Below the pieces are notes generated by a model that was not told where the DNA came from, searched no databases, and saw only the letters and a program-made list of their open reading frames with translations. Made by a program: the position numbers and the translations under genes. From a virus, in the IMG/VR virus record IMGVR_UViG_3300045970_000883, positions 1 through 42,000 of that record: a DNA stretch of 42,000 bases; one strand, given 5' to 3'. Shown in pieces: positions 8,336 through 42,000 of this stretch (positions are counted from its first letter, which is position 1; each line of letters opens with the position of its first letter).

Positions 8336-8339
8336 TCCC

Positions 8340-8710: not shown

Positions 8711-8711
8711 C

Positions 8712-12182: not shown

Positions 12183-12191
12183 GGAGACGAC

Positions 12192-12503: not shown

Positions 12504-12511
12504 GAGCGCCC

Positions 12512-12561: not shown

Positions 12562-12573
12562 GGAGGTCCTGAC

Positions 12574-13860: not shown

Positions 13861-13866
13861 CACACC

Positions 13867-15848: not shown

Positions 15849-15862
15849 GGAAGGAAGGAAGC

Positions 15863-16513: not shown

Positions 16514-17194
16514 ATGGCCGACACCCTCGCGACGGTCACGGCCAAGGTCCGGGCCCACCTGAACGACCTCGACGTCCAGCAGTACACGGACTCGTACCTC
16601 GTGACCTACGTCGGCATGGCGCAGTCACAGCTCGATCAGTGGCTCGCGTCGAAGGGTTGCGACAGGTACCGGATCGAAGCCACCGTGACCGTGCCGGCGG
16701 GGACGAAGTTCATCAACTTCACCACGAGCCCGGCCCTCCCGGCCGACTTCCAGCAGCCGATCATCCTGCACGAGAGGAAGACGGGTTCCACGAGCGCCAA
16801 CGACTGGCGCGCGATGGTCCAGGTCCGCGAGGACCTCCCGAACCTCGAGCCGCGGGAGATCCTGGGCTTCTGGTCCTGGCAGGGAGGGGCGATCCGCTTC
16901 CTCGGCGCGACCACCTCCCGTGACGTCCAGCTCGACTACCTCAACGTGCCGGCCGAGGTGGCGCTCCCGACGGACGTCCTGCCGGTATCCGACTCCGCCG
17001 AAGCGGTCGCCTTCCGGACCGCCCAGCTCGTGACCCACGCGGCGGGCGAGCTGGAGATGGCGCAGTCGTTCGAGCGTCAGTACCTCACGGCTGCGAACAA
17101 CCTCTATTCCCTCGCGATGCGACAGAAGCAGCGGCGGGTCCTCCGCCGGCCGTTCTACTACCGGGGCCAGAAGCGGTCCCCCTACATCACCTGA
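16514..17194 (+). CDS. Head-tail adaptor-like protein
   Basis: 226 residues directly after the previous gene. It starts with a helical DLDVQQYTDSYLVTYVGMAQSQLDQWL segment, then beta-rich sequence (VTVPAGTKFINFTTSPALP), and ends in a long C-terminal helix (LEMAQSFERQYLTAANNLYSLAMRQKQRR). This helical-beta pattern and length resemble podovirus gp4-type adaptors that bind under the portal. The C-terminal YYRGQKRSPYIT would be the extended tail. It is called on pattern and position. Confidence 0.6.
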   Translation: MADTLATVTAKVRAHLNDLDVQQYTDSYLVTYVGMAQSQLDQWLASKGCDRYRIEATVTVPAGTKFINFTTSPALPADFQQPIILHERKTGSTSANDWRAMVQVREDLPNLEPREILGFWSWQGGAIRFLGATTSRDVQLDYLNVPAEVALPTDVLPVSDSAEAVAFRTAQLVTHAAGELEMAQSFERQYLTAANNLYSLAMRQKQRRVLRRPFYYRGQKRSPYIT

Positions 17195-17205
17195 CGGAGG
17201 CCGAA

Positions 17206-17544
17206 ATGGCGATGGCAGTCACGGTCTACAACGACCTCACCGAGGCCGGCAACAAGACCCTCAAGATTCGCGGAAAGCTCGTCTTCTCGGGCTCCTACGC
17301 GACCGGCGGGGAGACGTTCGACTTCACGAAGATCCCCGGCGTCAACGTGAAGAAGGACGCCCAGGCGCTCGTGAGCGTCTGGGGAAGCGGCGGCTACGGC
17401 TACGGCTGGGTCCCCGGCGCGACGCTTTCCGTCGGGAAGGTGAAGATCAGCACCACGGCCGCCACCGAGCTCACCGCAGGGGCCTACCCGGCCGGCGTCA
17501 CGAGCGACACGGTGTTCTTCGAGGTCTGCATCCCGAAGCACTGA
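17206..17544 (+). CDS. Small beta-rich virion protein
   Basis: 112 residues with GGAGG before ATG 17206. It is nearly all beta in composition (KTLKIRGKLVFSGSYATGG, GATLSVGKVKISTTAATEL). Position between adaptor and hub genes suggests a connector, decoration or head-completion protein. It resembles the 12192 protein in size and style. No family recognised. Confidence 0.55.
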   Translation: MAMAVTVYNDLTEAGNKTLKIRGKLVFSGSYATGGETFDFTKIPGVNVKKDAQALVSVWGSGGYGYGWVPGATLSVGKVKISTTAATELTAGAYPAGVTSDTVFFEVCIPKH

Positions 17545-17545
17545 G

Positions 17546-19942
17546 ATGACGTTCCGCGCCTCTCAGCCGATGGATCTGGAGTGGTTCGGCGGGCTCGACA
17601 GCCTGACCCCGCCGAACGACCTCCCGCCGTTCTCTGCCGTGCGGGCGGACAACTGCGTCTATCCGAGGAGCGGCGTGGGCTCGAGGAGCGGGTTCAGCGG
17701 CATCACGAACGCCAATCCGGGCAGCGGCGCGAACAGCCCAGCAAATAGCCTCGTGGTCGTCACCACGCGCAACGGCGCCGTGGCGGATCGGCAGCTCTTC
17801 ATCGGGTTCGAGAACGGAGAAGTCTCGAAGACTGCGCTGGATCCAACTCTAGGTGGACTAAGCGCGGTTCCCATGAGCCCCCTCGCCGCTACGCCGAACA
17901 TCCTGACGGCGACTCAGTATTACCAGCGAGCCGTGCTCTGCATGTCGGGTGCAGACGGCTACGGCCGCTTTGCGTCCGTCGCGGGCGCCTCGAGTCTTGG
18001 GGCCCTGCGGTTCTCGCCGCCGATCGCGCCTATTCTTTCGCTGACCGTCATCGGAAGCGGTTGCACTCCAGGCTCTCACCGGTTCGCCTTGATCTTTCAG
18101 TTCACGGACGGCTCCGAGAGTCCGATGGGGGCCGCAGGGTCGATCGTCACGACCGGCACCGAACAGGTGAACATCTCGTGGGCCGGCGCCGCTCAGTACG
18201 TCGGCCCCGACGTCGCATTCATCTACCTGTGTGTGACGACGGCGGGGGACCCGAACACCTTCCGGCGCCTTTCCAAGACCAACCCCTACTCCGCCATGTC
18301 GTTCGCGTTCAAGGACGACGTGCTCCAGACGTATCCGCTGATGGGAAACCAGACGCGGTACCGAAGCCCAAAGTTCCCAGCCCTCGGCGTCGAGTACTCC
18401 GGACGTGTCGCGTACTTCGGCGAGAAGCACCGGGCGGTCGCCGGGTGGGACACGGGAGGCTCTCAAGGGACCGACCTGTTCTTCGAGCCCGGCGTGTTCC
18501 GGACGTATGTTCCGGGTGGCTGGACGGTCGTCTCCGGCTTGGGTTGCGGCATCTCGGGGGTTTGGGGTGCCATCCAGTTCGACGGCGCCACGGCCGTCCG
18601 CGCGAAGCTGAAGAACGTCGGGACGGTCGTTAACGACCTGCCGGGAATCGCCCAGCTTCAGGCCTCGGGATGGTCGGGAACTTTCGGCATCCGGATCGCC
18701 TATTCAAAGAGTTCCGGCCTGACCTCCGGAAGCCTGAAATTCGGCCTCACGGGAACGACGGGCAGCACATCTCAGACGATTAACCTCGGGCCGCTCCTGG
18801 CGGATACGGTCTACGTCACGGAGTTCACGGCGAGCGGATCCTTCTCGAACGACATTTCCCTCTTCTACGAGGGGATCGGCCCCGGTATCTCGAGCGAGAT
18901 CGTCTCCATCGTCTTTCTCGAGTGCTTCGACCCGACGAACACCTCCCACCGCTCGACTGTCTGGTGGAGCGAGCCGACGATGCTCCGGACGATCGACACG
19001 CTCACCGGAGGGCAGACGTTCGGCGCGGCCGACGGGGAAACCGCCTGGCTCGGGTTCGAGTGGCAGGGGCGGTTCATGGTCGCCAAGGACACGAGCCTCT
19101 GGGTGACGCAGAGGTCCTCGTCCACGCCGAACGAATGGCCGATCGAGAAGCTCTCCGACCTGATGGGAGTCTGTGGCCGGCGCGCGATCGGCCACGGTCC
19201 GGACTTCAAGATCCTCGTGAACCGCGGCGGGTGCTGGCTCTTCCAGGGGAGCGCCGTCGGCCCGGACGGGAACATCGCGAACGAGATCCCGGTGGAGTGG
19301 ACGGCCATCAACTGGGCGCAGGCCTGGCAAATCTGGGTCGCCGTCGACGACATCGAACAGCGAATCACGATCGGCGTTCCGACCGGGGCCTCCACGTACT
19401 GCAACAGCATGTACGTCCTCGACTACTCCGGCGGCTTCGGACCGGCCGGCGAGGCCGGCGGGCGCCGTTGGTCTGTCTGGCCGATCGAAGCTCGAGGAGG
19501 AGTGGTCGCGCGCCGGGGCGAAGCGGGGCAGAGCGAACTCTGGATCGCCCGGTACGCTGCCGTGACTTCCATCGTGGGCTACCACGACCCGGCCGCAACG
19601 CTCGACTGGAATGCCGACGACATCCCCATGACCTATGAGACGGGCAAGATCGGGGCGAGCGACGGCGCGCTCGGGCTCTACCGCCGCGTGGCGCTCGCGG
19701 CCGAAGGGGACGGAATCCTCAGCGTGGCGCTGGTGAAGGCGGAAAACACCGTCGTCTCTCTCCCTGCGCCGACCCTCTACACGCCGATGAGGGGGACGCA
19801 GCACCTCCTCTGCAACGTCACCGACGAAAGAGTAGGGGTGCGGATCGCGACTGCCGGGAGTGGCGCGAAGGTCCTCCTTCACCGGCTCTCCGTCTGGATT
19901 CGTCGCAACCCCTTCCGCACCTACCGGCCGAGGACCCCATGA
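17546..19942 (+). CDS. Large tail-hub or connector protein
   Basis: 798 residues beginning FRASQPMDLEWFGGLDSLTPPNDLPP, with many beta repeats afterwards (LTVIGSGCTPGSHRFALIFQ, YSGRVAYFGEKHRAVAGWD). In the podovirus order (adaptor, this gene, accessory virion proteins) it corresponds to the gp10/hub-type protein that closes the portal and joins the tail. Base use is slightly less GC-rich around 17800-18450 than in neighbouring genes, perhaps a mosaic segment. Its stop overlaps the next ATG. A tail receptor-binding role cannot be excluded. Confidence 0.6.
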   Translation: MTFRASQPMDLEWFGGLDSLTPPNDLPPFSAVRADNCVYPRSGVGSRSGFSGITNANPGSGANSPANSLVVVTTRNGAVADRQLFIGFENGEVSKTALDPTLGGLSAVPMSPLAATPNILTATQYYQRAVLCMSGADGYGRFASVAGASSLGALRFSPPIAPILSLTVIGSGCTPGSHRFALIFQFTDGSESPMGAAGSIVTTGTEQVNISWAGAAQYVGPDVAFIYLCVTTAGDPNTFRRLSKTNPYSAMSFAFKDDVLQTYPLMGNQTRYRSPKFPALGVEYSGRVAYFGEKHRAVAGWDTGGSQGTDLFFEPGVFRTYVPGGWTVVSGLGCGISGVWGAIQFDGATAVRAKLKNVGTVVNDLPGIAQLQASGWSGTFGIRIAYSKSSGLTSGSLKFGLTGTTGSTSQTINLGPLLADTVYVTEFTASGSFSNDISLFYEGIGPGISSEIVSIVFLECFDPTNTSHRSTVWWSEPTMLRTIDTLTGGQTFGAADGETAWLGFEWQGRFMVAKDTSLWVTQRSSSTPNEWPIEKLSDLMGVCGRRAIGHGPDFKILVNRGGCWLFQGSAVGPDGNIANEIPVEWTAINWAQAWQIWVAVDDIEQRITIGVPTGASTYCNSMYVLDYSGGFGPAGEAGGRRWSVWPIEARGGVVARRGEAGQSELWIARYAAVTSIVGYHDPAATLDWNADDIPMTYETGKIGASDGALGLYRRVALAAEGDGILSVALVKAENTVVSLPAPTLYTPMRGTQHLLCNVTDERVGVRIATAGSGAKVLLHRLSVWIRRNPFRTYRPRTP

Positions 19943-20568
19943 GGCCGCTTCCCGGCACGGAGATCGAGGCGTTCCGCCGCGACCCGAAGCAGTACCAGGC
20001 CGTGAAGATGCTCCTCGACGGGGCGAACGACACGCGCGACGCGCTCGAGCGGGGGAACTACGTCGGCGATCCGCAGTACGGGCGCTGGGGCTCGGTCTCG
20101 TGCCCCTCCTGGGCGATGGTGCCGGGCTCCGTGGCGCCCCCCTTCCTCTACTGCATGGGCGTCTACTCCCCCCGCTTCAGGGTCAACGACTCGATGAGCG
20201 GGGGACTCGAGGTCCCGGCCGATCTCATCTCCGGGGGCCGGCTCTACCCGGCGCTCCGGGTGACCTTCGAAGACACGCTCACGGCCGGCGAGCTCGTGAC
20301 GTGGACGCTCCTCGTGAACGTGGCCCCACGCGGCGGGGTGTACGCCGCGGCGGCATGGTCGTCGACCATCGTGCAGACGATCGCCCTGGCCGACTACCGG
20401 AGGGACTGCATCCTGACCTTCCCTTCGATCGCGATGGACTTCCAGCCCCTCGGGCAAGTGGTCTTCAGCATCAACCGCGTCGGAGCCGCCACCTCCGCCA
20501 ACCCGTACCTATTCGGCGCCTCGTTCTCGTATCAGAAAGGCCCCTTCGGGCTCGAGGCGCAGCCGTGA
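19939..20568 (+). CDS. Virion-associated hypothetical protein
   Basis: 209 residues in an ATGA overlap with the hub gene. It begins with a helical lead (EIEAFRRDPKQYQAVKMLLDG). The remainder is beta-rich (RFRVNDSMSGGLEVPADL, WTLLVNVAPRGGVYAAAAW), consistent with a small tail or nozzle component. No family recognised. Confidence 0.6.
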   Translation: MRPLPGTEIEAFRRDPKQYQAVKMLLDGANDTRDALERGNYVGDPQYGRWGSVSCPSWAMVPGSVAPPFLYCMGVYSPRFRVNDSMSGGLEVPADLISGGRLYPALRVTFEDTLTAGELVTWTLLVNVAPRGGVYAAAAWSSTIVQTIALADYRRDCILTFPSIAMDFQPLGQVVFSINRVGAATSANPYLFGASFSYQKGPFGLEAQP

Positions 20569-20975
20569 AGGGACCGATGACGATTCGGCGGGCCACGCGC
20601 GAGGACGGGCCGACGCTCCAGGCGATCGCCGCGGAGAGCCCCGGCCTCACGTTCCCGGCCGACGTCCTCGCCTGGCCGACCGTGGAGTGCTACATCGTAG
20701 AGAGCGAGGGGGAGATCCTCGGGTTCGGATACCTCGAGGCGATCCCGGAAGCCCACTTCGTCACCCGTCGCAGGGGCCTGAAGGCCCAGGACAAGAGCCG
20801 GGTCCTCGGGTGCCTCCACGTTGCGGCCGAGGCCGTGCTCGAGCGCCTAGACCTCCCGGCGATCCGGTTCCCGGTGCGTCCAGACGTCCCGGCGCTTGCA
20901 ATCTCCATCTCGAGACTTCGACACGTTCAAGGGGACCCGCGAGTACACCTCGCGCTGGTTCGCGGAGGTGATTAA
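20565..20975 (+). CDS. GNAT-like acetyltransferase candidate, 3' end possibly frameshifted
   Basis: 136 residues from GTG 20565 (ATG 20577 possible). TIRRATREDGPTLQAIAAES, then CYIVESEGEILGFGYLEAIPE, matches the first strands and helices of GNAT N-acetyltransferases. The CoA-binding part is weak. After about 20905 the frame loses its strong G/C preference at third positions. The same stretch in another frame (20912-20970) is strongly biased and reads RDFDTFKGTREYTSRWFAE, like a GNAT C-terminus. The open frame stops only one base into the next gene. Phage-encoded acetyltransferases in this position are common, with unknown targets. Confidence 0.55.
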   Translation: MKGPMTIRRATREDGPTLQAIAAESPGLTFPADVLAWPTVECYIVESEGEILGFGYLEAIPEAHFVTRRRGLKAQDKSRVLGCLHVAAEAVLERLDLPAIRFPVRPDVPALAISISRLRHVQGDPRVHLALVRGGD

Positions 20976-21463
20976 TGGTCAAAATTGGGGCCGAAGCGGG
21001 CAGCAGCGAGAACAGCCAGCAGGTCAACTACCTCGGCGATCAGCCGGAGTACAAGCCGCAGATCGAGCTCTCGAAGTACCTCGCGAAGCTCGGGGTGCAG
21101 TACAAGACGCAGGCCGATGACCTCTACGGGGGCGTCGACAACGCGAAGAACTACGGCTCCGGGGGCTTCGGCTACAACCCCTTCGAGGCGTTCGATCCGA
21201 CTGGAAATCCGCCGCCTCCGGATGGTGTTGTGGATCCGCGGACGGGGAAGCCGCCGGAATGGATGGACACGCCGCAGACCGGTACGAAGGGCGGCACGAA
21301 GGGCGGCACGAAGGCCCCCGCGCCACCGGGTAACAGCATGACGGCGACCGCGCCGGTCACCACTCCGCCTCCGCCCGGGACGTCGATGACGGCCGCGCCC
21401 GCGTCGACCGGCCCGACTCCCGAGGAGCTCCTCGCGCAGTGGACTGCTGGAAAGAAGCGATAG
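20975..21463 (+). CDS. Low-complexity virion protein
   Basis: 162 residues from ATG 20975, with GGAGG 6 bases upstream. A helical N-terminus (YKPQIELSKYLAKLGVQYKT) leads into Pro/Gly/Thr-rich sequence with a short tandem (TKGGTKGGTKAPAPP). It starts a run of three disordered proteins before the ejection-type proteins. Likely a minor tail or internal virion component. No family recognised. Confidence 0.55.
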   Translation: MVKIGAEAGSSENSQQVNYLGDQPEYKPQIELSKYLAKLGVQYKTQADDLYGGVDNAKNYGSGGFGYNPFEAFDPTGNPPPPDGVVDPRTGKPPEWMDTPQTGTKGGTKGGTKAPAPPGNSMTATAPVTTPPPPGTSMTAAPASTGPTPEELLAQWTAGKKR

Positions 21464-21472
21464 GAGAAGACG

Positions 21473-22126
21473 ATGCCGAGGTTCCTGAACGATCCTTACT
21501 TCCAGCCGCCCCCGTTCGCCGGCCCCTCGCCGAAGGGCTATCCGAAGGATCCTTACTTCCAGCCGGCCTTCGGACCGCCTCCGCCGGCCGATAACCTGAT
21601 GCTCGGCCAGAAGGTGCCGGCCCCGGGTGGCGGATGGAATCCGGGCCCTCCCGGTCCGGCCCCGGGTGGCGGCACGCCCGACCCTCCCGGCCCTGGTTGG
21701 AACCCGGGTGGCGGATGGAATCCGGGCCCTCCCGGTCCGGCCCCGGGTGGCGGCACGCCCGACCCTCCCGGCCCTGGTTGGAACCCGGGTGGCGGATGGA
21801 TTCCGAGCCCTCCCGGTCCGGCCCCGGGTGGCGGCAGCGGCCAGAGCGGGACGTCGGGCGGCGGCCTCAGCACGCCGCGGCCGAGCCCGGAACAGATACC
21901 CCAGCCGGTCCCGGGCCCGCCTCCGCCGAACGACAACCTCAACCTCGGCCAGAAGATTCCGCCCGCGGGACCGCCGAACGATGGCAGCGGCCAGAGCGGC
22001 CAGTCGGCCGGGGGCTTGAGCACGCCGCGGCCCAGCCCGGCACAGGCCGGAGGCGCAGGGATCCCGCCGCCGCCCGATGCGCCCGGATCCGTTGCCGCGC
22101 GCGCCCGGCGCAACTACTACGGCTGA
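21473..22126 (+). CDS. Pro/Gly-rich repeat protein
   Basis: 217 residues, almost wholly Pro/Gly/Asn/Trp-rich and collagen-like in look, without strict Gly-X-Y. DPYFQP occurs twice near the start (residues about 7-12 and 26-31). DNLMLGQK and DNLNLGQK, and two GSGQSG...LSTPRPSP blocks, show internal duplication. The 81-bp tandem at 21631-21837 encodes a 27-residue unit. The C-terminus RRNYYG resembles the start of the next protein (SANYYG). Probably a disordered virion protein. Confidence 0.6.
   Translation: MPRFLNDPYFQPPPFAGPSPKGYPKDPYFQPAFGPPPPADNLMLGQKVPAPGGGWNPGPPGPAPGGGTPDPPGPGWNPGGGWNPGPPGPAPGGGTPDPPGPGWNPGGGWIPSPPGPAPGGGSGQSGTSGGGLSTPRPSPEQIPQPVPGPPPPNDNLNLGQKIPPAGPPNDGSGQSGQSAGGLSTPRPSPAQAGGAGIPPPPDAPGSVAARARRNYYG
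21631..21837 (+). repeat. 81-bp tandem repeat in the Pro/Gly-rich gene
   Basis: The same 81-bp unit begins at 21631 and 21712, and a third, partial copy begins at 21793 and diverges after about 45 bases. The first two copies are identical as far as I can check, so the duplication is recent or kept homogeneous. The unit is 27 codons, so copy-number change keeps the frame. Confidence 0.85.
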
Positions 22127-22136
22127 GGAGCCCACG

Positions 22137-22949
22137 ATGAGCGCGAACTACTACGGGCAGTCACAACCCGCGAGGAAGAACACCGCCGGAGTTCCGAACG
22201 GCCAGGCTTCGCCCTACTACATAGAGCCGCTCCCCGGCACGGAACCGCCTGTCGACGGTGACGGAGGCGGCACCGGCGGAGCCGGAGGCGGAGGTACCGG
22301 GGGCGGCGGCGGCGTCGGCGGCGGAGGCGCCGGGGGCCCCGGTCCCGGCAACGGCGGCCCCCCCGGCGGCGGGACCTCAGGCCCCGGCAACGCCAACGGC
22401 CCAATCCGCTTGGGAGACGGGGACGTCAAGGATCCGAAAACGAATTCGGGGGGGGGCGGCGGCGGCGGCGGGACCGACGGCCTCGTGGATGACTACGCGT
22501 CCCCCACGGGCGGACTCGTCGGCTACTACGGCCGGATGATGGGCTCGACGGGCATGTCGGAGGCCGAATACAACGCCCTGAACCAGTCGACGACGCTGCC
22601 GATCCAGCAGCAGCAGCGACAGGCCCAGGACGAGATGCTGCGGGTTCGGGCCGCCACCGGGAATGACGCCGGCATTTACGGCGGCCTCTCGGAAGTCACG
22701 AAGAACGCCGGGGCCCAGATCGCAGACCAGGGCCGGAAGAACGTGCTCGCGAATGCCGACATCAAGAGGCAGGAGCAGGCGGCCGGCGCCGCCGGCAACC
22801 TGAACCTCTACGGCCAGAACCAGACGCAGTCCATGGAATACCTCCGCATGCTCGCGAACGTGCTGGGCCGCACGAGCAGCACGAGCGGAAGCGGATCCAG
22901 CTCGGGAGTTACTGCCGGGATTGCTTGGAATCCCGGGGGCACGGCGTAG
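22137..22949 (+). CDS. Gly-rich candidate internal virion protein
   Basis: 270 residues from ATG 22137 with GAGGAG upstream; the frame extends 60 bases further up but without a site. SANYYGQSQPARK, then a long Gly/Pro tract (residues about 38-85), a GGGGGGGG run and a helical second half (NQSTTLPIQQQQRQAQDEML, AGAQIADQGRKNVLANADI). Helical C-terminal halves in this position are usual for ejection proteins that leave the head with the DNA. No family recognised. Confidence 0.55.
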   Translation: MSANYYGQSQPARKNTAGVPNGQASPYYIEPLPGTEPPVDGDGGGTGGAGGGGTGGGGGVGGGGAGGPGPGNGGPPGGGTSGPGNANGPIRLGDGDVKDPKTNSGGGGGGGGTDGLVDDYASPTGGLVGYYGRMMGSTGMSEAEYNALNQSTTLPIQQQQRQAQDEMLRVRAATGNDAGIYGGLSEVTKNAGAQIADQGRKNVLANADIKRQEQAAGAAGNLNLYGQNQTQSMEYLRMLANVLGRTSSTSGSGSSSGVTAGIAWNPGGTA

Positions 22950-22958
22950 GAGGCCACG

Positions 22959-23930
22959 GTGGGATTCGAAAATATCCTCGCCCAGGCGGCCGGCGCGAAT
23001 ATCTCTCCGAAGATTCGCGCGGATCTCAGCCGTCTCTTGCAGGAGCAGGGCGATGCTCCGCCCGTACAGATGAGCAGCCTTCTGGCGCTCTCCTCGGCAC
23101 CAGAGGGCGCCGCCCGACCCGACGAGACGGAGGCGTTGACTGGAGTGGTGATGCCCGGCGCGCCGCGATCGGGGACCGGGATGCCGGGCATCGGGTGGGA
23201 GCAGAAGGCGGAGCCGGCCGCCGCCGCGTCGAAGTCCATCGGCTTCCGTGACACGGCGGGCGGGAACATGGCTCTCGATCTCCTCGAAAAGCGGAAGAAG
23301 CTGCGTTGGTGGACGCCAGACTTCATGGCGAACAGAAACGAACGCGACCTCGATACCGCTCTCAAGCTCGCCCACGCCGAGATGAGCGGGAGCCAGGCTC
23401 AGTCCGGCGAAGCCCAGTCCTACGCGAAACTTCTCGATGAGAGGACGCAGCGCGATCAGTCTCAGACTAGGTGGCAGGCGCAGGCATCGGCCGAAGCCGC
23501 CGAGCGTGAAGCCGCGAACAAGCGGTTCCAGGAGAATCTCGAGCTCGATCGAAAGCGGTTCGCGGAATCCGTCCGGAACAACAACAGCAGCGACTCCGAC
23601 CGCGATGCCTCCCGGGCCTTCCAGGAGAAGGTCTTCGCCGCGAACCAGGCCGCGGCTGCCACGAAACAGAGCCCCACCTCGCAGTACGACCTCGGCGCCG
23701 CCGATCCGGCCTCCACCGGCGTCTTCGCGAAGTTCGCCGAGACCTTGCGGAAGGGGGATCCGATGGCGACGGGGGAGGACGTCTCCGCGGCTCAGGTCGA
23801 CGCATCCCGCGGCGGAGGCCTCCCGCCGATGATGAGCTCGCCGGCCAACCGGCCTCGAGTAGCCGTCAATCCGAAGACCAAGAAACGGTTCTACGTCTAC
23901 GCGAACGGGCGCGTGAGCCCGGCTCCGTGA
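22959..23930 (+). CDS. Coiled-coil candidate internal virion (ejection) protein
   Basis: 323 residues from GTG 22959. The N-terminal third is mixed (FENILAQAAGANISPKIRAD). The centre is a long, charged helix or coiled coil (RNERDLDTALKLAHAEM, then AAEREAANKRFQENLELDRK). The C-terminus is basic (NPKTKKRFYVYANGRV). This composition just before a giant polyvalent protein is typical of podovirus ejection proteins. The stop overlaps the start of the polyvalent gene. No family recognised. Confidence 0.6.
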   Translation: MGFENILAQAAGANISPKIRADLSRLLQEQGDAPPVQMSSLLALSSAPEGAARPDETEALTGVVMPGAPRSGTGMPGIGWEQKAEPAAAASKSIGFRDTAGGNMALDLLEKRKKLRWWTPDFMANRNERDLDTALKLAHAEMSGSQAQSGEAQSYAKLLDERTQRDQSQTRWQAQASAEAAEREAANKRFQENLELDRKRFAESVRNNNSSDSDRDASRAFQEKVFAANQAAAATKQSPTSQYDLGAADPASTGVFAKFAETLRKGDPMATGEDVSAAQVDASRGGGLPPMMSSPANRPRVAVNPKTKKRFYVYANGRVSPAP

Positions 23931-26900
23931 CCGGCGCTCCTCCGCCTCCCGGCCTCGTCTGGGAAGACGAATCTACGGCCCCCACCAGCGGGCCGCGCCC
24001 CGCGCTCGGGACACCCCCTCCAGGCCTCGTCTGGGAGGATCAGCTCCAGGCCTCTCCGGCCCCCTCACAGCCCGTCGCGCCCCCGGCGGGGCCTCCTTCC
24101 CCTGCCGGGGCGCTTCCTCCGGCCGGGCTTCCTCCCCCCGCCGGGGGCTCGGCTCTTCGTCCGGGCTCTCTCACGCCCCAGCTCATCCAGCCGGGGAATC
24201 CCCTCCGGGAGGCGATGCTCGGTCGCCAGCGGGAGGCCGGCGGAGCTCCTCTCGCGTCGCTCGGGCCGCAGGAGATCCAGGCGGCCGGCGCCGCGGCGGC
24301 TCCGCCGGAGCCCGAGATACCGCTCCCGGGCCTCTCCGCAGCCGCTCCGCTCGTGACGTCGGTAGCCCAGGCAACCCCGGGCCTCGTGGCAGGAATGGCG
24401 AGGATGGTCCCCGACACCCTCCAGCGGGTGAGGAGGGGACTGGTCGACGAGCTCGCCGACCAGACGGGGATGACGCCGCCACAGCGCGCGGCGATGCACG
24501 AAGTGACGAAGCTCGCGGCCGCCGCGCCTCCGTTCTTCGCTCCCGACTTCCAGGCCGATCTCCTCCGGAAGGCCGACGATGCGATCGTCCGGCCGATCGA
24601 GAGGGCCATCGGAAACACCGAGACCTCCCAGCGACTCGCGGCGAAGCGGAAGAACCAGAGCGTCGGTGAGGCTCTGAAGGATCCGGAACGATGGCAGGAC
24701 TGGGCCGGGTCTTCGATCCCTTCGATGGCGACCATGGCCGCGGTGAACGCTCTTGCCCCCGGCGCCGGCCTCCTCGCCTCGACGACGCTGATGGAAGGCG
24801 GGTCGAAGGTCCGGGAGATCGAGGACAAGGAGCGCCAGACCGGGAAGCGGTACAACGATCTCGGCGCCGCGGCCGTCGCGGTTGCGACCGGCGTGGTGAA
24901 CGGGTACCTCGAGAAGTTCGGCTTCGAGACCGCCGTCGGCAAGCTCGCGGAGTTCCTGCCGGCGAAAGCCAGGAACGGTTTCCTCGGGGCGATCTCGAGG
25001 GCCGTCCAGGGCGCCGTCGGAGAGATGGGGACGGAAGGCCTCCAGCAGGTGATCCCGAACGCCCTGACGAAGGCGCTCCTCGATTCGACCCAGGACATCT
25101 CCGAGGGCGTCTTCGATTCCATGATGGGCGGTCTCGTGGGCGGCGGCGGCATGGCCATGGTGAACACCGGCCAGCGGGCCGTCCGCGGCTCCGAGATCGA
25201 GCAGCGTAGGTCTGACCGTCGCGCGTGGAGGGCCGAGGACGGGCCCGGGACGCCGGCCGCCCCTGCACCCTTCGCGGAAGGCGGGCCGGGCCGCGGTGCC
25301 GTGCCGCAGGCGGATCTCGACGCCATCAACGAGGGCGTTCGCTCCCTCGAGCAGCCCCTCTCCCCGAGCCAGAAGCTCGAGCGCCTCAAGCTGCAGTCGG
25401 CGGCTCTCGACGCGCAGCTCCGTCGCCTTCAGAGCGAGATGGGGCATCCGACGAACGACCCGAGCATGCAGGCGCCCCAGCCCGCCGCACCCCTCGAGCA
25501 GCCCCTCGCCCCGCAGCCGGCGCACCGGCCGATCTCCATTGACACGCTCCTCGGCGCGCAGGCGCTCCGCGGCGTGGTGAAGGCGACCGACTTCCGAGAC
25601 CAGACCGCGGACGCGCGAGGACGCAACGTCTTGAACGCGGTGAACGCCGAGGAGCGCCAGCGGATAGCCGAGGCGCCGGGAGCGGCGCTTCGGATGATCC
25701 TCGGTGACGATCCGGCCTTCGCCATGGCGCCGGCTCCGGTCGCGGCGCCGGCCGATTCCTTCGCGGCCCCGTTGGAAACGACCTCCGCCGACCCCTCCGA
25801 GAAGCGGATGGCATCGACCCCCGTCCTCGACTGGCTCGACACGCGAAGCCAGGAAGCGGACGAGGATCGCAGGACCCTCCCGCCCGAGGAGTGGAGCCAC
25901 GATGAGGCGCGGTACTTCGCTCTCACGGATCCAGCGACTGGCCTTCCGAACCGAGCGGCGGTCGCGATCGCGGAGCGCCAGAGCCCGAACGCTACGCGGG
26001 GCACTCTCGACCTCGACGGTCTCAAGGCCTTCAACGACACCTACGGGCACGAAGCGGGAGACGAGTACATCGGCATGGTGCCGCTCTACGCCCGCCAACA
26101 CGGGATCCGCCTGTTCCGTCTCGGGGGAGACGAATTCGGCGTGCTGCACGACGGGACCGAAGAGGAGCTCGGCGGCATGCTCGAAAAGGCGAGAGAGGCC
26201 GTCGAAGGCGCTCGCGTTCCGGGCGCCACGGAGGCCGGCGAGGCGTATCCTCTTCACAAGGGATGGAGCCATGGCACTGGACGAGACTTCAGGACCGCCG
26301 ACGCTCGGGCCTACGAAGACAAGCGGAGACGGAAGGCCGAGCGGCCCGCGAGTAACCCTCAGCCCGTGGAAGTGGGCGGCAGCACGGGGGCTGAAGCCCC
26401 TGCCGGGCCGGGAGATTCCCCCGGAGTACCGCCACCTCTTCGCCGACCAGGGGGCGACGACTCCGGAAACTCCGGAGCCCCTCCCGCCGGCCCCGCTTCC
26501 CTTCCCCCGCCGGTAACCCCCGCCGCTCCGGCGGCCGCCGCGCGTGCGGAGACCTCTCCCGCGGCTCCGCCGGCCCCGGCGCCGGCCCCGAACCCCGCCC
26601 CGACCACCGAGGCCTTCACCCGCAAGGGGAAGACCGGCGAGGCCTTCACGGCCGACGGCGAGCGCGTAGGCACGCAGTGGGCGATCGCCGACGCCTTCGA
26701 CGATCTCGTCCCCTCTCACACGGAGAACGGCGTCGGGGACCTCGAGCCGAATCCGGCTTTCGCCCAGGTCCTTCAGCCCCGCAACCGCGAGCGCGTCGCC
26801 TCCCAGGACCAGATCGGGGAGATGGCGAAGAACATCCGGCCGGGCGCGCTCGGGGAGAGCTTCAACGCCTCGGATGGCGCCCCGATCGTCGGGCCGGATC

Positions 26901-35561: not shown

Positions 35562-36164
35562 GTGCAGAGCGACTTCGACGTAGCGCTCCGGCGGGTCCTC
35601 GAGTTCGAGGGCGGGAAGGTCGACGACCCGAACGACAAGGGCGGCCGGACGAACCGGGGGATCACGCAGCGCACCTACGATGGGTGGAGGAGAGACCAAA
35701 GTCTCCCTCCCCGGGACGTGTGGGAGCTCGAGGACGCCGAGCTGCGGGCGATCTACCGCAACCTCTACTGGTGGCCGGCGAAGGACCTCACGTTCCCGCT
35801 CAACCTCGTCGTCTTCGACTCCGCCGTCCTCTTCGGCCCGAGCCGCGCCGCCGGCTGGCTCGCGGCCGCTTCCTGGCACCCGGCCTCACCCGAGGCCCAG
35901 GCGTGGGCGATCCTCTGCATGAGGCGGGACCGGCACCGGGAGAACGTCGCGAAGGACCCGAGCCAGAAGCGGTTCCTCAACGGCTGGATGAACCGCCTCG
36001 AGGGCCTCGCGGAGGCCGTTTTCCCGAAGAATGGGAAGCAAGGGGGAGACAGGTGGCTGCAACCCGTGACAGGCGAGCAGATCGAATCCCTTGCCAAGGT
36101 AGATGTCGCGAGTTCGACCCTCGTGTCCCGCTCCAATTTAAACCCCTCTCCCGTAAAGGGTTAG
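35562..36164 (+). CDS. Endolysin, GH108 N-acetylmuramidase
   Basis: 200 residues from GTG 35562 with GGGAGG upstream. VLEFEGGKVDDPNDKGGRTN carries the GH108 catalytic motif (Glu16 of EGG, then the DPNDxGGxTNxGI stretch), followed by RTYDGW. The peptidoglycan-binding half reads YWWPAKDLTFPLNLVVFDSAV. It hydrolyses the glycan strand at lysis; no signal peptide, so it needs a holin. About 25 codons at the 3' end overlap a tRNA-Gly-like sequence (36089-36135), the probable attP core. Residues after about 175 are therefore att-derived and would change when the phage integrates. It is cut off from the membrane-protein block by 26 kb. Confidence 0.85.
   Translation: MQSDFDVALRRVLEFEGGKVDDPNDKGGRTNRGITQRTYDGWRRDQSLPPRDVWELEDAELRAIYRNLYWWPAKDLTFPLNLVVFDSAVLFGPSRAAGWLAAASWHPASPEAQAWAILCMRRDRHRENVAKDPSQKRFLNGWMNRLEGLAEAVFPKNGKQGGDRWLQPVTGEQIESLAKVDVASSTLVSRSNLNPSPVKG
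36089..36135 (+). other. attP core: 3' half of tRNA-Gly(GCC)
   Basis: From CCTTGCCAAGG (anticodon loop TTGCCAA, anticodon GCC) through the T-arm GCGAG-TTCGACC-CTCGT to GTCCCGCTCCA, this matches the 3' half of bacterial tRNA-Gly(GCC) closely. The 5' half of a tRNA (D-arm, anticodon 5' strand) is absent, so it is not a functional tRNA gene. With the integrase gene next door it is the expected attP: integration would restore the host tRNA gene. It lies inside the endolysin reading frame. Confidence 0.75.
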
Positions 36165-36170
36165 CGAAAA

Positions 36171-36200
36171 GGGCCGGCAGCAACGCCGGCCCTTCTTGCT
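36171..36200. terminator. Bidirectional rho-independent terminator
   Basis: GGGCCGGC (36171-36178) pairs with GCCGGCCC (36185-36192) around a 6-base loop. On the plus strand TTCTTGCTT follows; on the minus strand the tail is TTTTCGCT. It lies between two converging operons (endolysin and integrase), exactly where a shared terminator is expected. Confidence 0.8.
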
Positions 36201-37893: not shown

Positions 37894-38055
37894 GAATACC
37901 TCCTTGTCCGTGGCGTGTGTCGCGCGGCTTGCTTGGCCTGGGTCGTCCTTGGGTTTCTTAACGGCTTCGTCGGCAGGGAGGGCATCCGGGGCTGTCGCAG
38001 CGGTGGCAAGGAAGGGGAAAAAGCACGAGCTGACCCATCGCCCCGCCATCCACCC
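37894..38055. other. Spacer between RHH gene and lipoprotein gene
   Basis: 162 bases that are less GC-rich than the genome. On the minus strand the end holds AAGGAGGTATTC, the ribosome site of the lipoprotein. I see no convincing promoter or terminator. An open frame runs through in the lipoprotein frame, but no ribosome site supports a longer protein. Confidence 0.4.
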
Positions 38056-38307
38056 TCACGCTCCCTGCGCTCGTCGACGTCGTTTCTGCGGAGGCTCTGG
38101 ATTGGCCGCAGGAGCGCGCTCCTCTTGCTTCGGAACGCCTGGCCCCACCATCCCACGATGCTCTAGAGCTTCCCGCAGAAGCATCCCCACGACCTGCGAG
38201 CGGGTAATCCGATACGGCCCACCCGCGAGCGCGTCGATCGCACGCAGGGACTCGACATCCACTCGGCCAGAGACCGGTACCGATACATCAAGAGGCTCTT
38301 TCGCCAC
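38056..38307 (-). CDS. Ribbon-helix-helix repressor candidate
   Basis: 83 residues from GTG 38307. The first 50 residues (DVSVPVSGRVDVESLRAIDALAGGPYRITRSQVVGMLLREALE) have the strand-helix-helix pattern of Arc/CopG-type DNA-binding proteins: DVSVPVSGRVD is the strand, the rest two helices. The tail is basic and Pro-rich (EPPQKRRRRAQ). No CI-like repressor is present elsewhere, so this is the best candidate for maintaining lysogeny. It starts at or next to a predicted transcription start, suggesting a leaderless mRNA. Confidence 0.65.
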   Translation of the reverse strand: MAKEPLDVSVPVSGRVDVESLRAIDALAGGPYRITRSQVVGMLLREALEHRGMVGPGVPKQEERAPAANPEPPQKRRRRAQGA

Positions 38308-38342
38308 GTTTGAACCCTAACACCGCAAAAAACCCTTGACAA
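38307..38342 (-). promoter_or_regulatory. Leftward promoter of the lysogeny operon
   Basis: On the minus strand, TTGTCA (38342-38337) and TAGGGT (38319-38314) are 17 bases apart. The start expected 7 bases downstream falls at 38307, the first base of the repressor's GTG. This would give a leaderless message, as with lambda's maintenance promoter. Confidence 0.5.
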
Positions 38343-38371
38343 ACATCCGGATTGTGCCGATCGTACCGGAC
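38336..38371 (+). promoter_or_regulatory. Rightward early promoter
   Basis: TTGACA (38336-38341), 17 bases, then GATCGT (38359-38364), weak but with the key A2 and T6. The predicted start at about 38371 is one base before GTG 38372. The -35 box shares five bases with the leftward -35 (TTGACAA reads as both TTGACA and, reversed, TTGTCA), so the two promoters would compete. Confidence 0.45.
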
Positions 38372-38388
38372 GTGCCAGACGTAACGAT
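38353..38388 (+). repeat. Four 9-bp direct repeats, candidate operators
   Basis: TGTGCCGAT, CGTACCGGA, CGTGCCAGA and CGTAACGAT follow one another without gaps (38353, 38362, 38371, 38380), sharing a YGTRCCRG-like core. They cover the -10 region and start of the rightward promoter. Tandem short direct repeats are a usual operator form for ribbon-helix-helix repressors (for example omega). Assignment is inference. Confidence 0.5.
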
Positions 38389-38593
38389 CAAGACGAACGA
38401 GACGAATCGCTCGAACAGGGGCCGGCGGCGCACGCCGGGAGTGGTTACGTGGGTGCGCCTGCCCGAGGCGGTGCACGGTCGACTGAAGACCCGCGCCGAC
38501 CGCGTCGGTAGGCCCATGGCCGAACTGATCCGCGTGGCCGTTGAAATCTCGCTCCGGCGGCCTCTCGGCGTTCGCAGGAGGAAGGCGTCATGA
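38372..38593 (+). CDS. Second ribbon-helix-helix protein, first early gene
   Basis: 73 residues from GTG 38372 (79 from GTG 38354). GVVTWVRLPEAVHGRLKTRA followed by DRVGRPMAELIRVAVEISLRR is a clear RHH pattern: the strand VTWVRL, then two helices. The N-terminal 25 residues are basic and disordered and encoded over the operator-like repeats. A Cro-like antagonist of the divergent RHH repressor is likely. Its stop overlaps the next ATG (ATGA). Confidence 0.65.
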   Translation: MPDVTIKTNETNRSNRGRRRTPGVVTWVRLPEAVHGRLKTRADRVGRPMAELIRVAVEISLRRPLGVRRRKAS

Positions 38594-38985
38594 AGCTCCT
38601 GGCCTGGCTCACAGGTATAACTTCTGTCCCGGAAGCCGCCCCTGCCACGGGAAACCTCGTCCGCTTTTCCCGGGTCGGCGCCCTCGTCCCCCTCCGCCCG
38701 AACGGCCTCCCCTCGCCGAACAGCGCCGCGGCCGAGCTGGTAAGGGTCTTCCTCGAGCCCCGGGTCTCCGGTGGCGGGAACCTGAAGTCGATCGCGATGG
38801 AGCTGGGGCGGGAGCCCCGCCGGATCTACAACGAGGCGGAAGGGGAGTCGATCCTCTCCTGGGACATCGTCGACCGGGCCGGGGCGCTCCTCTCTCTCGA
38901 GGACCGGCTGATTCTTGGCCGCTTCCTGATGGACCGCTGGGGCCTTTCCGTGACCGTCGGACCGATCCCCCGGCTCGAGGCCTGA
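38590..38985 (+). CDS. Early regulator candidate, possibly HTH/CII-like
   Basis: 131 residues from ATG 38590. LKSIAMELGREPRRIYNEAEGESILSW in the middle resembles a helix-turn-helix of phage CII-type or regulatory proteins, and SLEDRLILGRFLMDRWGLSV would be a dimerisation helix. The N-terminal 45 residues are Pro-rich and unassigned. Second gene of the early operon, in the place of a lysis-lysogeny regulator. The assignment is weak. Confidence 0.5.
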   Translation: MKLLAWLTGITSVPEAAPATGNLVRFSRVGALVPLRPNGLPSPNSAAAELVRVFLEPRVSGGGNLKSIAMELGREPRRIYNEAEGESILSWDIVDRAGALLSLEDRLILGRFLMDRWGLSVTVGPIPRLEA

Positions 38986-38987
38986 CG

Positions 38988-39215
38988 ATGATGCTGGCGA
39001 ACGCCCGCACGGCCGACTCGACGACCGTCCACCACGGGATCCTGGCCCCCTGGCTACTGCGGCCCATACCCGACGGTGAGAGCGAGTGGGCCGGGGCTCT
39101 ATGCGCCTCGCGCCCTCCGTGGCTGGGCAGCGTCGACTTTCGCAACCTCAAGCGGACGAGGAAGCCGGTCACGTGCCTGCGGTGCCTCCGGATGGCCCGG
39201 CGGGGGAAGCCCTGA
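38988..39215 (+). CDS. Small Cys-containing early protein
   Basis: 75 residues from ATG 38988 (38991 possible). HHGILAPWLLRPIPDGES in the first half and TCLRCLRMARRGKP at the end. The three Cys suggest a single zinc site. The stop shares a base with the next ATG (TGATG). I know similar short proteins in phage early regions, but none with a function. Confidence 0.6.
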   Translation: MMLANARTADSTTVHHGILAPWLLRPIPDGESEWAGALCASRPPWLGSVDFRNLKRTRKPVTCLRCLRMARRGKP

Positions 39216-39469
39216 TGCCGGCCCGCGTGGCGCCCCCGAACAGCCGCGGACTCGTACCCGGCAAGGTCCTCCTCACCCTCGACGACGCCGCGTTCGCGCT
39301 CTCGTGCGGCCGGACGGTCGTCTACGAGCTCGTCCAGCGTGGCCGGTTGATCGCGGTGGGGAGCGGGCGCGGCCGGAAGGTGACGGCGACCTCGGTACGT
39401 CAGTACGTCGATGGGCTCGTCTCGGCCGTGCGCCGGGAGCGGGTGATGCCGGAGGTCCGGCAGCAGTAG
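39215..39469 (+). CDS. Excisionase-like HTH protein
   Basis: 84 residues from ATG 39215. LLTLDDAAFALSCGRTVVYEL, then VQRGRLIAVGSGRGRKVTAT, is the HTH_17 (MerR-like, excisionase-type) winged-helix: first helix, turn with GRTVVYELV, and the wing. A DNA-binding partner of the integrase or an early regulator. It lies 2 kb from int, on the lytic strand, as expected if expressed only on induction. Confidence 0.75.
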   Translation: MPARVAPPNSRGLVPGKVLLTLDDAAFALSCGRTVVYELVQRGRLIAVGSGRGRKVTATSVRQYVDGLVSAVRRERVMPEVRQQ

Positions 39470-39496
39470 TTCCAGGGGAAGGGAAGGAGAAGGGCG

Positions 39497-39844
39497 ATGG
39501 CGATGGAAGTGGGGCAGGACTGGTTCTTCGGAGAGGCGCAGGAGCGATTCCTCGCGTCCCCGGAGCTGACGAACGTGGCGATCCCCCTCCCGAGGGGCGC
39601 GGCCGCGGAGATGGACGCTCCGGAGGCTGAAGGCTGGCCCTGCGTGATCGAGGGCGAGCCCGCCGGCCGGGAGTTCGCGCGGAAGTACCGCGGCGAGATC
39701 GGCGCCGAGTGGGAGGTCCTCGAGGAGAACCTCGCGCTCCGCCTCCTGGCGTGCTCGGCATTCGACGTTCCGGCCGTGATCGCGGCCATGAAAAAGGGCG
39801 AGACGTTTCGGACCCGGTTCGCCGAGTACCGGCTCGTGAAGTAG
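39497..39844 (+). CDS. Hypothetical early protein
   Basis: 115 residues preceded by GGGAAGGAGAAGG. It is acidic, with helical ends (WEVLEENLALRLLACSAFDV, VIAAMKKGETFRTRFAEY). No family recognised. It lies 15 bases before the next gene's start and probably belongs with the DUF2303 cluster. Confidence 0.6.
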   Translation: MAMEVGQDWFFGEAQERFLASPELTNVAIPLPRGAAAEMDAPEAEGWPCVIEGEPAGREFARKYRGEIGAEWEVLEENLALRLLACSAFDVPAVIAAMKKGETFRTRFAEYRLVK

Positions 39845-39859
39845 GCAGAAGGAGGACTC

Positions 39860-40204
39860 TTGGCAGACATCCCGCAGGTGATGACCTTCACCCCTCTCTC
39901 GACGACGCTCCAGACCGTTCACCAGGGCCGCGCGAAGTTCCTCCTCGAGGCGATCGACGACGCCATCACCGAATGCGTGGCGGCCTCCTCGAGGCTCGGC
40001 GGCCCCAGCAAGGTGACGGTGAGCCTGACCTTCACCCCCGGGAAGGGCGCCATGAGCGTCGCCGGGCTCGTCAACCTGAAGAAGCCCGAGGGCGGGACCG
40101 TGCCGGCCCTCTTCTACGTCGACAAGGCGGGCCGCCTCGTGGAGGACGACCCGGAGCAGGAGCGCCTCCCGTTCGTGGAGTCGATCCGGAGGACTGACGG
40201 GTGA
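39860..40204 (+). CDS. Hypothetical protein linked to DUF2303
   Basis: 114 residues from TTG 39860, supported by GGAGGA 5 bases upstream; no ATG or GTG fits. An N-terminal helix (GRAKFLLEAIDDAITECVA) is followed by beta strands (KVTVSLTFTPGKG, ALFYVDKAGRL). It overlaps the DUF2303 gene by 4 bases, and I know similar small proteins next to DUF2303 genes, but none with a proven role. Confidence 0.6.
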   Translation: MADIPQVMTFTPLSTTLQTVHQGRAKFLLEAIDDAITECVAASSRLGGPSKVTVSLTFTPGKGAMSVAGLVNLKKPEGGTVPALFYVDKAGRLVEDDPEQERLPFVESIRRTDG

Positions 40205-41010
40205 TCGACACGACGTTCCTGACGAAGCTCGAGATGCTTGCCGTCGCCGCGAACCGGCAGACGATCATCACCCCCGACCACCGGACCTTCCTCTACCGCC
40301 CCGACCTCGACCGCTACGAGGAGCTCGAGCGCGTCGTGAAGCAGACCGGCAAGGTCGCGAACGTCGCGTGCCTCGAGGCGCTCGTCCTCGAGGAAGCTCG
40401 GCGCCGCCTGAACGTCGACGGCGAGTTCATGACCGTCTGCTTCACCGAGGGCGGGGCCTTCTTCTCGCCGGACGACCGGGAGCGGCTCGACGGCTACACC
40501 TACGAGCGGGTACTGGCGCCCGAGTGGAAGACGATCCGGGACTTCAACGGGAAGGTGATGAAGCACCAGGAGTTCCTCCGGCTGCTCCAGAGCCTCCGCT
40601 GGTGCCTCCAGGCGGCCGGCCCGGTCATCCGGTCCTTCCGCTCGGTGGACGTCTCGAGGGTCGCCCGGATCGCCTCCGCGCCAACGATGGTCGACGGGAA
40701 GGCCGGCGTCACGCTGGCCGTCGAGATCGCCGCGAAGGTCCAGGGCGGCGGTGAGGCCCAGGCCTCGCAGTCGCTCCCCGGCGAGCTCGTCTTCTCCGTC
40801 CCCTACGCCCGCGGGGATCAGGTCCCTCAGACGCTCGAGGCCGAGGTCGTGATCGAGATGGCGCGCGACGGGGAAAAGGACGTCGTCCTCTTCGGCTTCA
40901 TCGTCCCGGACATCCACGCGGTGGAGCGCAACGCGAAGACGGCCGAGGTGGCTTTCTTCCGCGAAGGCCTCAAGGCCCTTCCCCGCGTCCTCGTCCTCGA
41001 GAACTTCTAA
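40201..41010 (+). CDS. DUF2303 (YfdQ) family protein
   Basis: 269 residues in a GTGA overlap. The N-terminal quarter, TIITPDHRTFLYRPDLDRYEELERVV, the central WKTIRDFNGKVMKHQEFLRLLQ and the C-terminal beta-rich SLPGELVFSVPYARGDQVPQ match the YfdQ/DUF2303 family found in many temperate phages. Its biochemical role is unknown. It is often near recombination genes. The 3' end is followed by a strongly folded RNA (41027-41099). Confidence 0.85.
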   Translation: MIDTTFLTKLEMLAVAANRQTIITPDHRTFLYRPDLDRYEELERVVKQTGKVANVACLEALVLEEARRRLNVDGEFMTVCFTEGGAFFSPDDRERLDGYTYERVLAPEWKTIRDFNGKVMKHQEFLRLLQSLRWCLQAAGPVIRSFRSVDVSRVARIASAPTMVDGKAGVTLAVEIAAKVQGGGEAQASQSLPGELVFSVPYARGDQVPQTLEAEVVIEMARDGEKDVVLFGFIVPDIHAVERNAKTAEVAFFREGLKALPRVLVLENF

Positions 41011-41125
41011 CCCCGATGAGTCACATGGGCCCCCGGAGCCGGGCGTCCCGAGAGGGACACAAACATTCTGTTCGGCGTCTCGGAAACGAGCGGGGGCCCT
41101 TTCTCTTCTCTCGGAAGGAGCAGAC
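41011..41125 (+). promoter_or_regulatory. Leader and trailer around the structured RNA
   Basis: 115 bases between the DUF2303 stop and ATG 41126. Sixteen bases before the folded element carry CGATGAGTC. After it, TTTCTCTTCTCTC could act as a termination tail, and GGAAGGAG (41113-41120) is the next gene's ribosome site. Confidence 0.5.
41027..41099 (+). ncRNA. Candidate structured RNA with three-way junction
   Basis: Helix P1: GGGCCCCCG (41027-41035) with CGGGGGCCC (41091-41099), 9 pairs. P2: GCCGGGC (41038-41044) with GTTCGGC (41070-41076), 7 pairs including two G-U. P3: GTCCC (41045-41049) with GGGAC (41054-41058) around GAGA. P4: CTCG (41079-41082) with CGAG (41087-41090) around GAAA. Both hairpin loops are GNRA. 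The 11-base bulge ACAAACATTCT (41059-41069) is the only long unpaired part. A U/C-rich tract follows, then the ribosome site of the next gene. It fits no RNA family I know; a terminator with an unusual head or a regulatory RNA are the options. Confidence 0.6.
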
Positions 41126-41548
41126 ATGCGGGTGATCTTGCAGTTCGAAATGAGGGTCTCGGCGCCGACGAAGACGACGACCGGGATTTCCCTCGAGTGC
41201 CTCGGGGTGAAGGTGGAGCGGACGGCCGGCAGCGTGCAGCGTGCCGTGGAGGACGCGCTCTCCGTCTTCGGGCACGAGCTCCGGAAGCCCCTCCTGAAGG
41301 AAGCGCGGGACGCCCGGGCTCAGACCGCCCCGCCCGGGCCGCGGACGATCATCGACAAGAACCAGGAGCCGGAGGCGGAGGACATGGGCGGGGCTCTCCC
41401 CGAGACGTTCGTCCTCCCCCCGATCACCGTGCCGGCGCTGGAGGCTCTGATGGGGCAGAGCGCGCACCAGGACCCCGACACCGATCCCGGCTCCCTCTTC
41501 CACCCCGATTCCACCCAGCACGGGCCGCTCGTCCCGCAGGTGCCGTGA
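41126..41548 (+). CDS. Hypothetical protein downstream of the structured RNA
   Basis: 140 residues from ATG 41126, with GGAAGGAG 5 bases upstream. The N-terminal half is mixed alpha/beta (MRVILQFEMRVSA, GSVQRAVEDALSVFGHEL) and the C-terminal half is Pro/Asp-rich and probably disordered (SAHQDPDTDPGSLFHPDSTQ). No family recognised. Expression may be controlled by the preceding RNA fold. Confidence 0.6.
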   Translation: MRVILQFEMRVSAPTKTTTGISLECLGVKVERTAGSVQRAVEDALSVFGHELRKPLLKEARDARAQTAPPGPRTIIDKNQEPEAEDMGGALPETFVLPPITVPALEALMGQSAHQDPDTDPGSLFHPDSTQHGPLVPQVP

Positions 41549-41637
41549 GGACGCTTCGTGGCGCGGCCCTCGTCCTGGCGCTCCTTGCGCTCGCGGCGGT
41601 CGTCCGCGTCGTCGAGGCGCTCGTCCCAAAACGCTGA
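41545..41637 (+). CDS. 30-residue single-span membrane peptide
   Basis: GTG 41545 to TGA 41637, in the GTGA overlap with the previous stop. MRTLRGAALVLALLALAAVV with a basic start and VRVVEALVPKR end is one clear membrane helix. The ribosome site is weak. It overlaps the first third of the next gene in another frame, so one of the two may be a shadow. Confidence 0.4.
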   Translation: MRTLRGAALVLALLALAAVVRVVEALVPKR

Positions 41638-41800
41638 ACCCGTCGCGTTCATAAGAAAGGGGGAGAAGACGTGGGAGTGGGACATCTGGCGACCGGACGC
41701 GGGCGAACGTCCTCCGGACGGCCCGGTCGAATGGGTCTCTTCAAGGCGAGTCGCGCGGGAAATCTGCGCGGAGCGGAATCTCAGGGTGGCGGCCCCGTGA
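41558..41800 (+). CDS. Small hypothetical protein, start uncertain
   Basis: 80 residues if it starts at GTG 41558, which has GAGGA 6 bases upstream. The first 25 residues (Arg/Ser-rich) look like a shadow of the membrane peptide. The rest (GEKTWEWDIWRPDAGERPPD, then VEWVSSRRVAREICAERN) looks like a real domain, so a later start is possible. The stop overlaps the GTG of the next gene. No family recognised. Confidence 0.5.
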   Translation: MARPSSWRSLRSRRSSASSRRSSQNAEPVAFIRKGEKTWEWDIWRPDAGERPPDGPVEWVSSRRVAREICAERNLRVAAP

Positions 41801-41991
41801 CGCTCGTGGAGCTGAAGGTCGTTCGGTACGAGCTCGAGGACCGGGAGAAGGCCCTCCTCGAGCACGAGAGGCGCGCGGCCGCTGGGAACCAGTGGGCCCA
41901 GAGGCGGGACCTGCGGGAACAGCGCCACCAGGTGGAGCTCCGGCGGGCCGAGGTGGAGCGCCGCATCCGAGCGATGGAGGGAGGGGCGTGA
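41797..41991 (+). CDS. Second copy of the 42-236 gene (overlap)
   Basis: Encodes the same 64 residues as 42-236; the one base difference is silent. It is the same gene seen at the other end of the circular overlap, not a paralogue. Confidence 0.65.
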   Translation: MTLVELKVVRYELEDREKALLEHERRAAAGNQWAQRRDLREQRHQVELRRAEVERRIRAMEGGA

Positions 41992-42000
41992 ACCTCGAGT
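41988..42000 (+). CDS. 5' end of the 233-595 gene (overlap)
   Basis: GTG 41988 and the following 10 bases repeat the start of the gene at 233. The window ends here. Confidence 0.6.

Follow-up and report, generated by a model that had tools for sequence, protein, structure and literature searches.

A probable intrinsic terminator of branched shape behind the DUF2303-type gene of a phage early operon

The window analysed here is a stretch of 42,000 nucleotides of viral DNA, positions 1 to 42,000 of IMG/VR record IMGVR_UViG_3300045970_000883. Between two genes of its early operon, the segment 41027-41112 probably acts as an intrinsic (Rho-independent) terminator, and most likely as a partial one, that is, an attenuator. 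The best argument that the element is the local form of an intercistronic terminator is the recurrence of a hairpin after DUF2303 in other phages; many unrelated phages have a hairpin terminator at this position. Termination is further favoured by a U-led tail present on the + strand only and by the second-ranked terminator score. The site is thus best regarded as a further example of an intrinsic terminator, an ordinary signal in an unusual branched shape.

Gene context

The element lies behind a conserved gene pair and ahead of the next gene of the same operon:

39860-40204, + strand: phrog_204 gene (phrog_204, E 7.7e-11), first half of a conserved pair with DUF2303
40201-41010, + strand: DUF2303-type gene (phrog_210, E 8.6e-5), counterpart of E. 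coli yfdQ and JC1 gp10
41115-41120, + strand: Shine-Dalgarno sequence AAGGAG of the next gene, five bases before its start
41126-41548, + strand: next early-operon gene, 140 aa, with no family match

The product of 40201-41010 had no hit in the Pfam search and its direct match to JC1 gp10 is weak; by context, and with the conserved neighbour phrog_204 in support, it can be placed in the DUF2303/yfdQ family. An earlier note on this DNA had located the element between DUF2303 and the following gene, and the gap is indeed non-coding, as it runs from the DUF2303 stop codon (41008-41010) to the next start at 41126. The outer stem, P1, begins 16 nt past the stop and ends 26 nt before the start codon, a distance too short to hold a promoter between the stem and the 41126 gene.

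The genes behind 41126 continue across the contig ends toward the replication initiation gene at 1086-1898. Since the gap is too small for a promoter, these genes would need either readthrough or a promoter inside the structure itself; in 38000-42000 no sigma-70-type promoter was found, though the host may use promoters of another type. These two observations favour termination that is partial.

Two further features touch on this part of the record. About 244 bp are shared by positions 1-245 and 41757-42000, which showed a single difference and are identical over the last 117 nt, and because both ends repeat, the record looks circular or terminally redundant, with a length of about 41.76 kb. 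Inside the replication initiation gene, a 12-bp repeat (CGCAATGCGGAT) is present in 4.7 copies at 1476-1531, and these repeats look like origin iterons within the initiator gene.

Fold of the RNA

The RNA at 41027-41099 forms a hairpin of 73 nt in which P1 encloses a branched interior of 55 nt. Its parts, as given by the predicted fold and the pair probabilities, are the following:

41027-41035, + strand: 5' strand of P1, GGGCCCCCG
41091-41099, + strand: 3' strand of P1, CGGGGGCCC
41027-41035/41091-41099, + strand: P1 pairing, 9 bp, all G-C
41038-41076, + strand: P2/P3 arm, on the 5' side of the junction
41038-41044/41070-41076, + strand: P2, 7 bp
41045-41049/41054-41058, + strand: P3, 5 bp, with a GAGA loop
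41059-41069, + strand: unpaired stretch ACAAACATTCT, a one-sided bulge of the P2/P3 arm
41079-41082/41087-41090, + strand: P4, 4 bp, with a GAAA loop, abutting P1 with zero spacer

All four nested helices of the earlier note, with their GAGA and GAAA loops, were recovered where it had drawn them, together with the sole long unpaired stretch and the direct contact of P4 with P1. The note had also named comparison with shuffled sequence as a check, and here the fold held: the minimum free energy of 41027-41099 is -42.6 kcal/mol against -29.9 +/- 3.3 kcal/mol for dinucleotide shuffles (z -3.8), and none of 200 shuffles was as good. When the region is taken with 106 nt of context, z is -2.7. In the ensemble of 350 nt of mRNA, computed without ligand, the pair probabilities of P1-P4 are 0.91-1.0, and those of P1 are 0.92-1.0. 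As P4 abuts P1 without a spacer, the two could stack into one hairpin of about 13 bp closed by the GAAA loop, from which P2/P3 would project as a branch on the 5' side.

The sequence is 68.6% G+C across the genome, and the two strands of the window together hold about 24 further non-overlapping sites that fold equally well or better, so that the absolute stability of 41027-41099 is unexceptional. The 9-bp arms of P1 were then held fixed while the inner 55 nt were shuffled 1000 times. A multibranch loop appeared in 57.5% of these interiors, and 6% of the shuffles were at least as stable as the natural fold (p = 0.06); the three-way junction is therefore close to what chance would give. This undercuts the impression in the earlier note that the RNA is more designed than a simple terminator, as most shuffled interiors branch as well. 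The surplus over chance stems mainly from P1, a perfect 9-bp G+C stem with UUUCUCUUCUCUC immediately 3' of it, and the bulky branched interior is largely the product of chance folding in a G+C-rich loop.

Terminator signal

P1 is followed directly by a pyrimidine-rich segment:

41100-41112, + strand: U/C-rich tract UUUCUCUUCUCUC, a terminator-like tail

A U/C-rich tract followed by a ribosome site had been reported in the earlier note, and both are in place, with AAGGAG starting two bases behind the tract. The eight bases directly after P1, UUUCUCUU, contain 6 U; just three U lead the tail before C interruptions set in, and because of these the U tract is rated weak to moderate. On the minus strand the flank of P1 has no T-run (ATGTGACTCAT), and AUGUGACUCAU is what follows the stem there; the signal therefore has a single direction, that of the operon. 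The 3' end of the transcript would be expected at about 41102-41108.

Both strands were scanned with a d'Aubenton-Carafa-type score, which combines the stem energy per base with a weight for the U tract and covered closed stems up to about 100 nt. With 17.8, the P1 site is the second-best terminator locus in the window, after 36171-36192. In a dinucleotide-shuffled 42-kb sequence, 0.24 sites of such a score are expected per strand at any position, and 0.05 per strand when a length of at least 60 nt is also required, without any demand for a gene-end position. A simple consensus terminator scan did not list the P1 site because it allowed only loops of 3-8 nt; with its 73 nt and its branches, the hairpin exceeds the length that common terminator models accept.

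That the site is a G+C-rich intergenic stretch that merely folds is the least probable of the readings considered. In its favour are the 24 or so comparable sites and the near-chance interior; against it stand the combination of a perfect 9-bp stem, an adjacent U/C tract, a gene end and the right strand, the small number of long sites of such score expected per strand, and the recurrence of the position in other phages.

Set against the usual description of an intrinsic terminator, the stable G+C-rich stem is provided by the 9-bp P1 and by the -42.6 kcal/mol of the whole hairpin, the U-rich tract directly 3' of the stem by UUUCUCUU, weak to moderate as it is, and the location at a gene end on the gene's own strand by the 16-nt distance from the DUF2303 stop. 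A single hairpin with a short loop of about 3-8 nt is absent, as the interior is 55 nt long and branched. A short loop is typical of intrinsic terminators and is not strictly required for their function. The site is named a branched variant because the short loop is missing while stem, tail and position fit.

Intrinsic terminators have been predicted in Burkholderia phage JC1 (PMC9144972, Table 4). The P1 site shares with such terminators the G+C-rich stem, the gene end (16 nt past the stop), the adjacent U-led tract and the right strand, whereas it differs in its 55-nt branched "loop" in place of 3-8 nt, in a tail of 3 U before the first C and in its location inside an operon.

Hairpins after DUF2303 in other phages

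phrog_204 was found in 18/18 records searched, which are the window and 17 DUF2303 phages (JC1 and 16 others). In the annotated gene order of the DUF2303 phages it immediately precedes DUF2303, and in E. coli K-12 yfdP likewise precedes yfdQ. A stable hairpin begins 9-16 nt past the DUF2303 stop in JC1, BcepMigl, YeP6, Pm86, phi3LM21, RcapNL, Tarzan, LagS-V1, Soos, Caulobacter W2 and E. coli yfdQ (example loci are L039:7547-7641, L042:1681-1776 and L100:2058-2184, among others). The hosts of these phages include Burkholderia, Yersinia, Pasteurella, Caulobacter, Gordonia, Labrenzia and others, to which the E. coli prophage CPS-53 is added.

The hairpin of Pasteurella phage Pm86 is canonical, with GCCCGCUAUUUGCGGGC followed by UUUUUAUUU (GCCCGC-UAUUU-GCGGGC-UUUUUAUUU), and canonical terminator hairpins also follow DUF2303 in Yersinia phage YeP6 and yfdQ in E. 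coli. Tails of mixed C and U that resemble the one in the window are present in Caulobacter phage W2 (UUCUUCUCCCCC) and Gordonia phage Tarzan (UUCUCCCC). Compared with the hairpins of Pm86, YeP6, Tarzan, W2, LagS-V1, Soos, the Bcep phages and CPS-53, the P1 site has the same phrog_204-DUF2303 neighbours and begins at a comparable distance (9-16 nt) past the stop, often with the next start equally near; most of the others, in contrast, consist of one hairpin of 16-48 nt whose sequence is unrelated, and none has the three-way junction of the window. Since sequence and size differ in every genome, it is the position of the hairpin that is conserved and not an RNA family.

The DUF2303 end was then ranked by terminator score among all gene ends of each genome. 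In the 12 genomes that have a gap at this position, with 35-73 gene ends each, it ranks 1-3 in nine:

Window 2/35
YeP6 2/36
Pm86 1/73
phi3LM21 3/42
RcapNL 10/41
Tarzan 1/39
LagS-V1 3/47
Caulobacter W2 1/37
Soos 1/51
JC1 7/52
BcepMigl 1/51
Constance 31/41

Six records in which the next gene overlaps or nearly abuts gave mixed ranks (5/73, 32/60, 47/52, 12/45, 28/39 and 2/40). The Fisher combined p for the rank is 9e-5 over 16 records, a set that takes in those lacking a gap, and p is 9e-4 against gap-matched gene ends in 10 gap-bearing records, both values leaving out the window and BcepMigl (one of two Lessieviruses) and coming from comparison phages that are few and were chosen by DUF2303 similarity.

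A strong hairpin also occupies this position in JC1, RcapNL and Constance, with no good U tail behind it, and because of the poor tail these hairpins may act otherwise, through mRNA stability, Rho or pausing; part of the conserved role after DUF2303 might thus be related to mRNA stability or to Rho. For the window, the corresponding reading would be a hairpin that stabilises or processes an mRNA 3' end, shielding the phrog_204/DUF2303 message from 3' exonucleases or marking an intercistronic RNase cut without termination. The strong hairpins with poor U tails in JC1 and RcapNL and the high stability of the stem are in line with such a role, which is nonetheless unlikely given that in most of the compared phages the tail is U-led and the DUF2303 end scores as a terminator at or near the top of all gene ends.

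Searches for a known RNA family and for a switch

The earlier note knew of no RNA family of this shape, and Rfam 15 bears this out, as nothing in the window reached the gathering score; the top weak matches, with E from 0.8 to 5, fall to unrelated families on the other strand. Structure-like patterns retrieved no RNA homologue from contigs of viruses and genomes. An exact 18-mer taken out of the unpaired stretch matched viral contigs once, at an unrelated site that lacks the structure. The flanking genes were sought with peptide patterns in the viral contigs and the genome contigs and by tblastn against phages and plasmids, and no usable homologue came up. A covariance model (R1) run over 20 records recovered the window itself and a weak match in a cousin phage (16 bits, E 0.125), which was set aside as chance, being on the strand opposite to the genes of that phage and about 500 nt from its terminase gene. 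The closest cousin, IMGVR_UViG_3300025000_001858, has a major capsid protein 75% identical and an alignment that covers window 769-21185, and an identical fragment, IMGVR_UViG_3300045971_000417, aligns over window 4883-24504; neither extends to 41027-41099. In the literature searched, no phage terminator with a three-way junction and no terminator after DUF2303 was described.

The upstream sequence GAUGAGUC and the GAAA in P4 prompted a look for a ribozyme, and no hammerhead-like or other one was found in Rfam at a permissive threshold. The sequence ATGAGTCACAT that precedes P1 has no repeat elsewhere in the window.

The junction of three helices, its two GNRA loops and its A-rich bulge, together with a start codon 26 nt downstream and a pyrimidine tail that can pair weakly with the ribosome site, could also suggest a regulatory leader of 41126 (a riboswitch, an aptamer attenuator, or a protein-binding or antitermination site), in which P2/P3/P4 would sense a signal and control P1 or the ribosome site. 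The ensemble holds no mutually exclusive antiterminator fold; the only exact 7-nt alternative noticed, CCGAGAG/CUCUCGG (41048-41054 with 41108-41114), has an ensemble probability of 0, and P1 is almost always formed. The interior, moreover, is close to its shuffles once P1 is fixed, and neither an Rfam match nor a homologue was found, which makes such a leader quite improbable. Thus, among the three options of the earlier note, the elaborate terminator is the best supported, by its tail, its score rank and its positional recurrence, while the riboswitch-like leader or aptamer found no Rfam match or switch fold.

Proposed mechanism and meaning

From the fold and its context we infer termination, its leakiness and a contribution of P1-P4 stacking. 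Once RNA polymerase moves out of the DUF2303 gene, the P2/P3 arm would fold first and P4 next, and P1 would zip up starting beside P4 and advancing on the polymerase. Completion of P1 would leave the weak U-rich hybrid UUUCUCUU in the active site and lead to release of the polymerase, while some polymerases would read through and provide mRNA for the 41126 gene and those behind it. In this way the phrog_204/DUF2303 pair would reach a higher expression than the downstream genes, or be expressed independently of them.

Some terminators in early operons of the lambda type are leaky or overridden by antitermination. The site shares with them its location between early genes of one operon, and differs in that the window has no identified antitermination protein and no identified nut-like or put-like element. 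At imperfect terminators, NusG helps in B. subtilis and mycobacteria (PMC8060035). A more elaborate scheme, in which the conserved phrog_204-DUF2303 attenuator has here gained a branched P2/P3/P4 domain that binds a protein or an RNA and tunes readthrough into the early genes, is highly improbable.

The recurrent hairpin points to a phrog_204/DUF2303 pair whose expression is held at another level than that of its neighbours. Its recurrence across diverse phage hosts and in E. coli prophage CPS-53 is the more useful by-product of the analysis, modest and testable.

Other features of the window

The top-scoring site, 36171-36192 (GGGCCGGC-AGCAAC-GCCGGCCC), is a strong terminator of the bidirectional kind, and each strand has a T-led tail; it separates the last late gene from the convergent integrase, a place at which one would expect a terminator. 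Beside the integrase, 36088-36136 resembles the 3' half of a tRNA (GCGAGTTCGACCCTCGTGTCCCGCTCCA), with no complete tRNA found by ARAGORN, and is a likely attP core. In the structural gene region, 21622-21836 holds an 81-bp tandem repeat in 2.7 copies at 98%.
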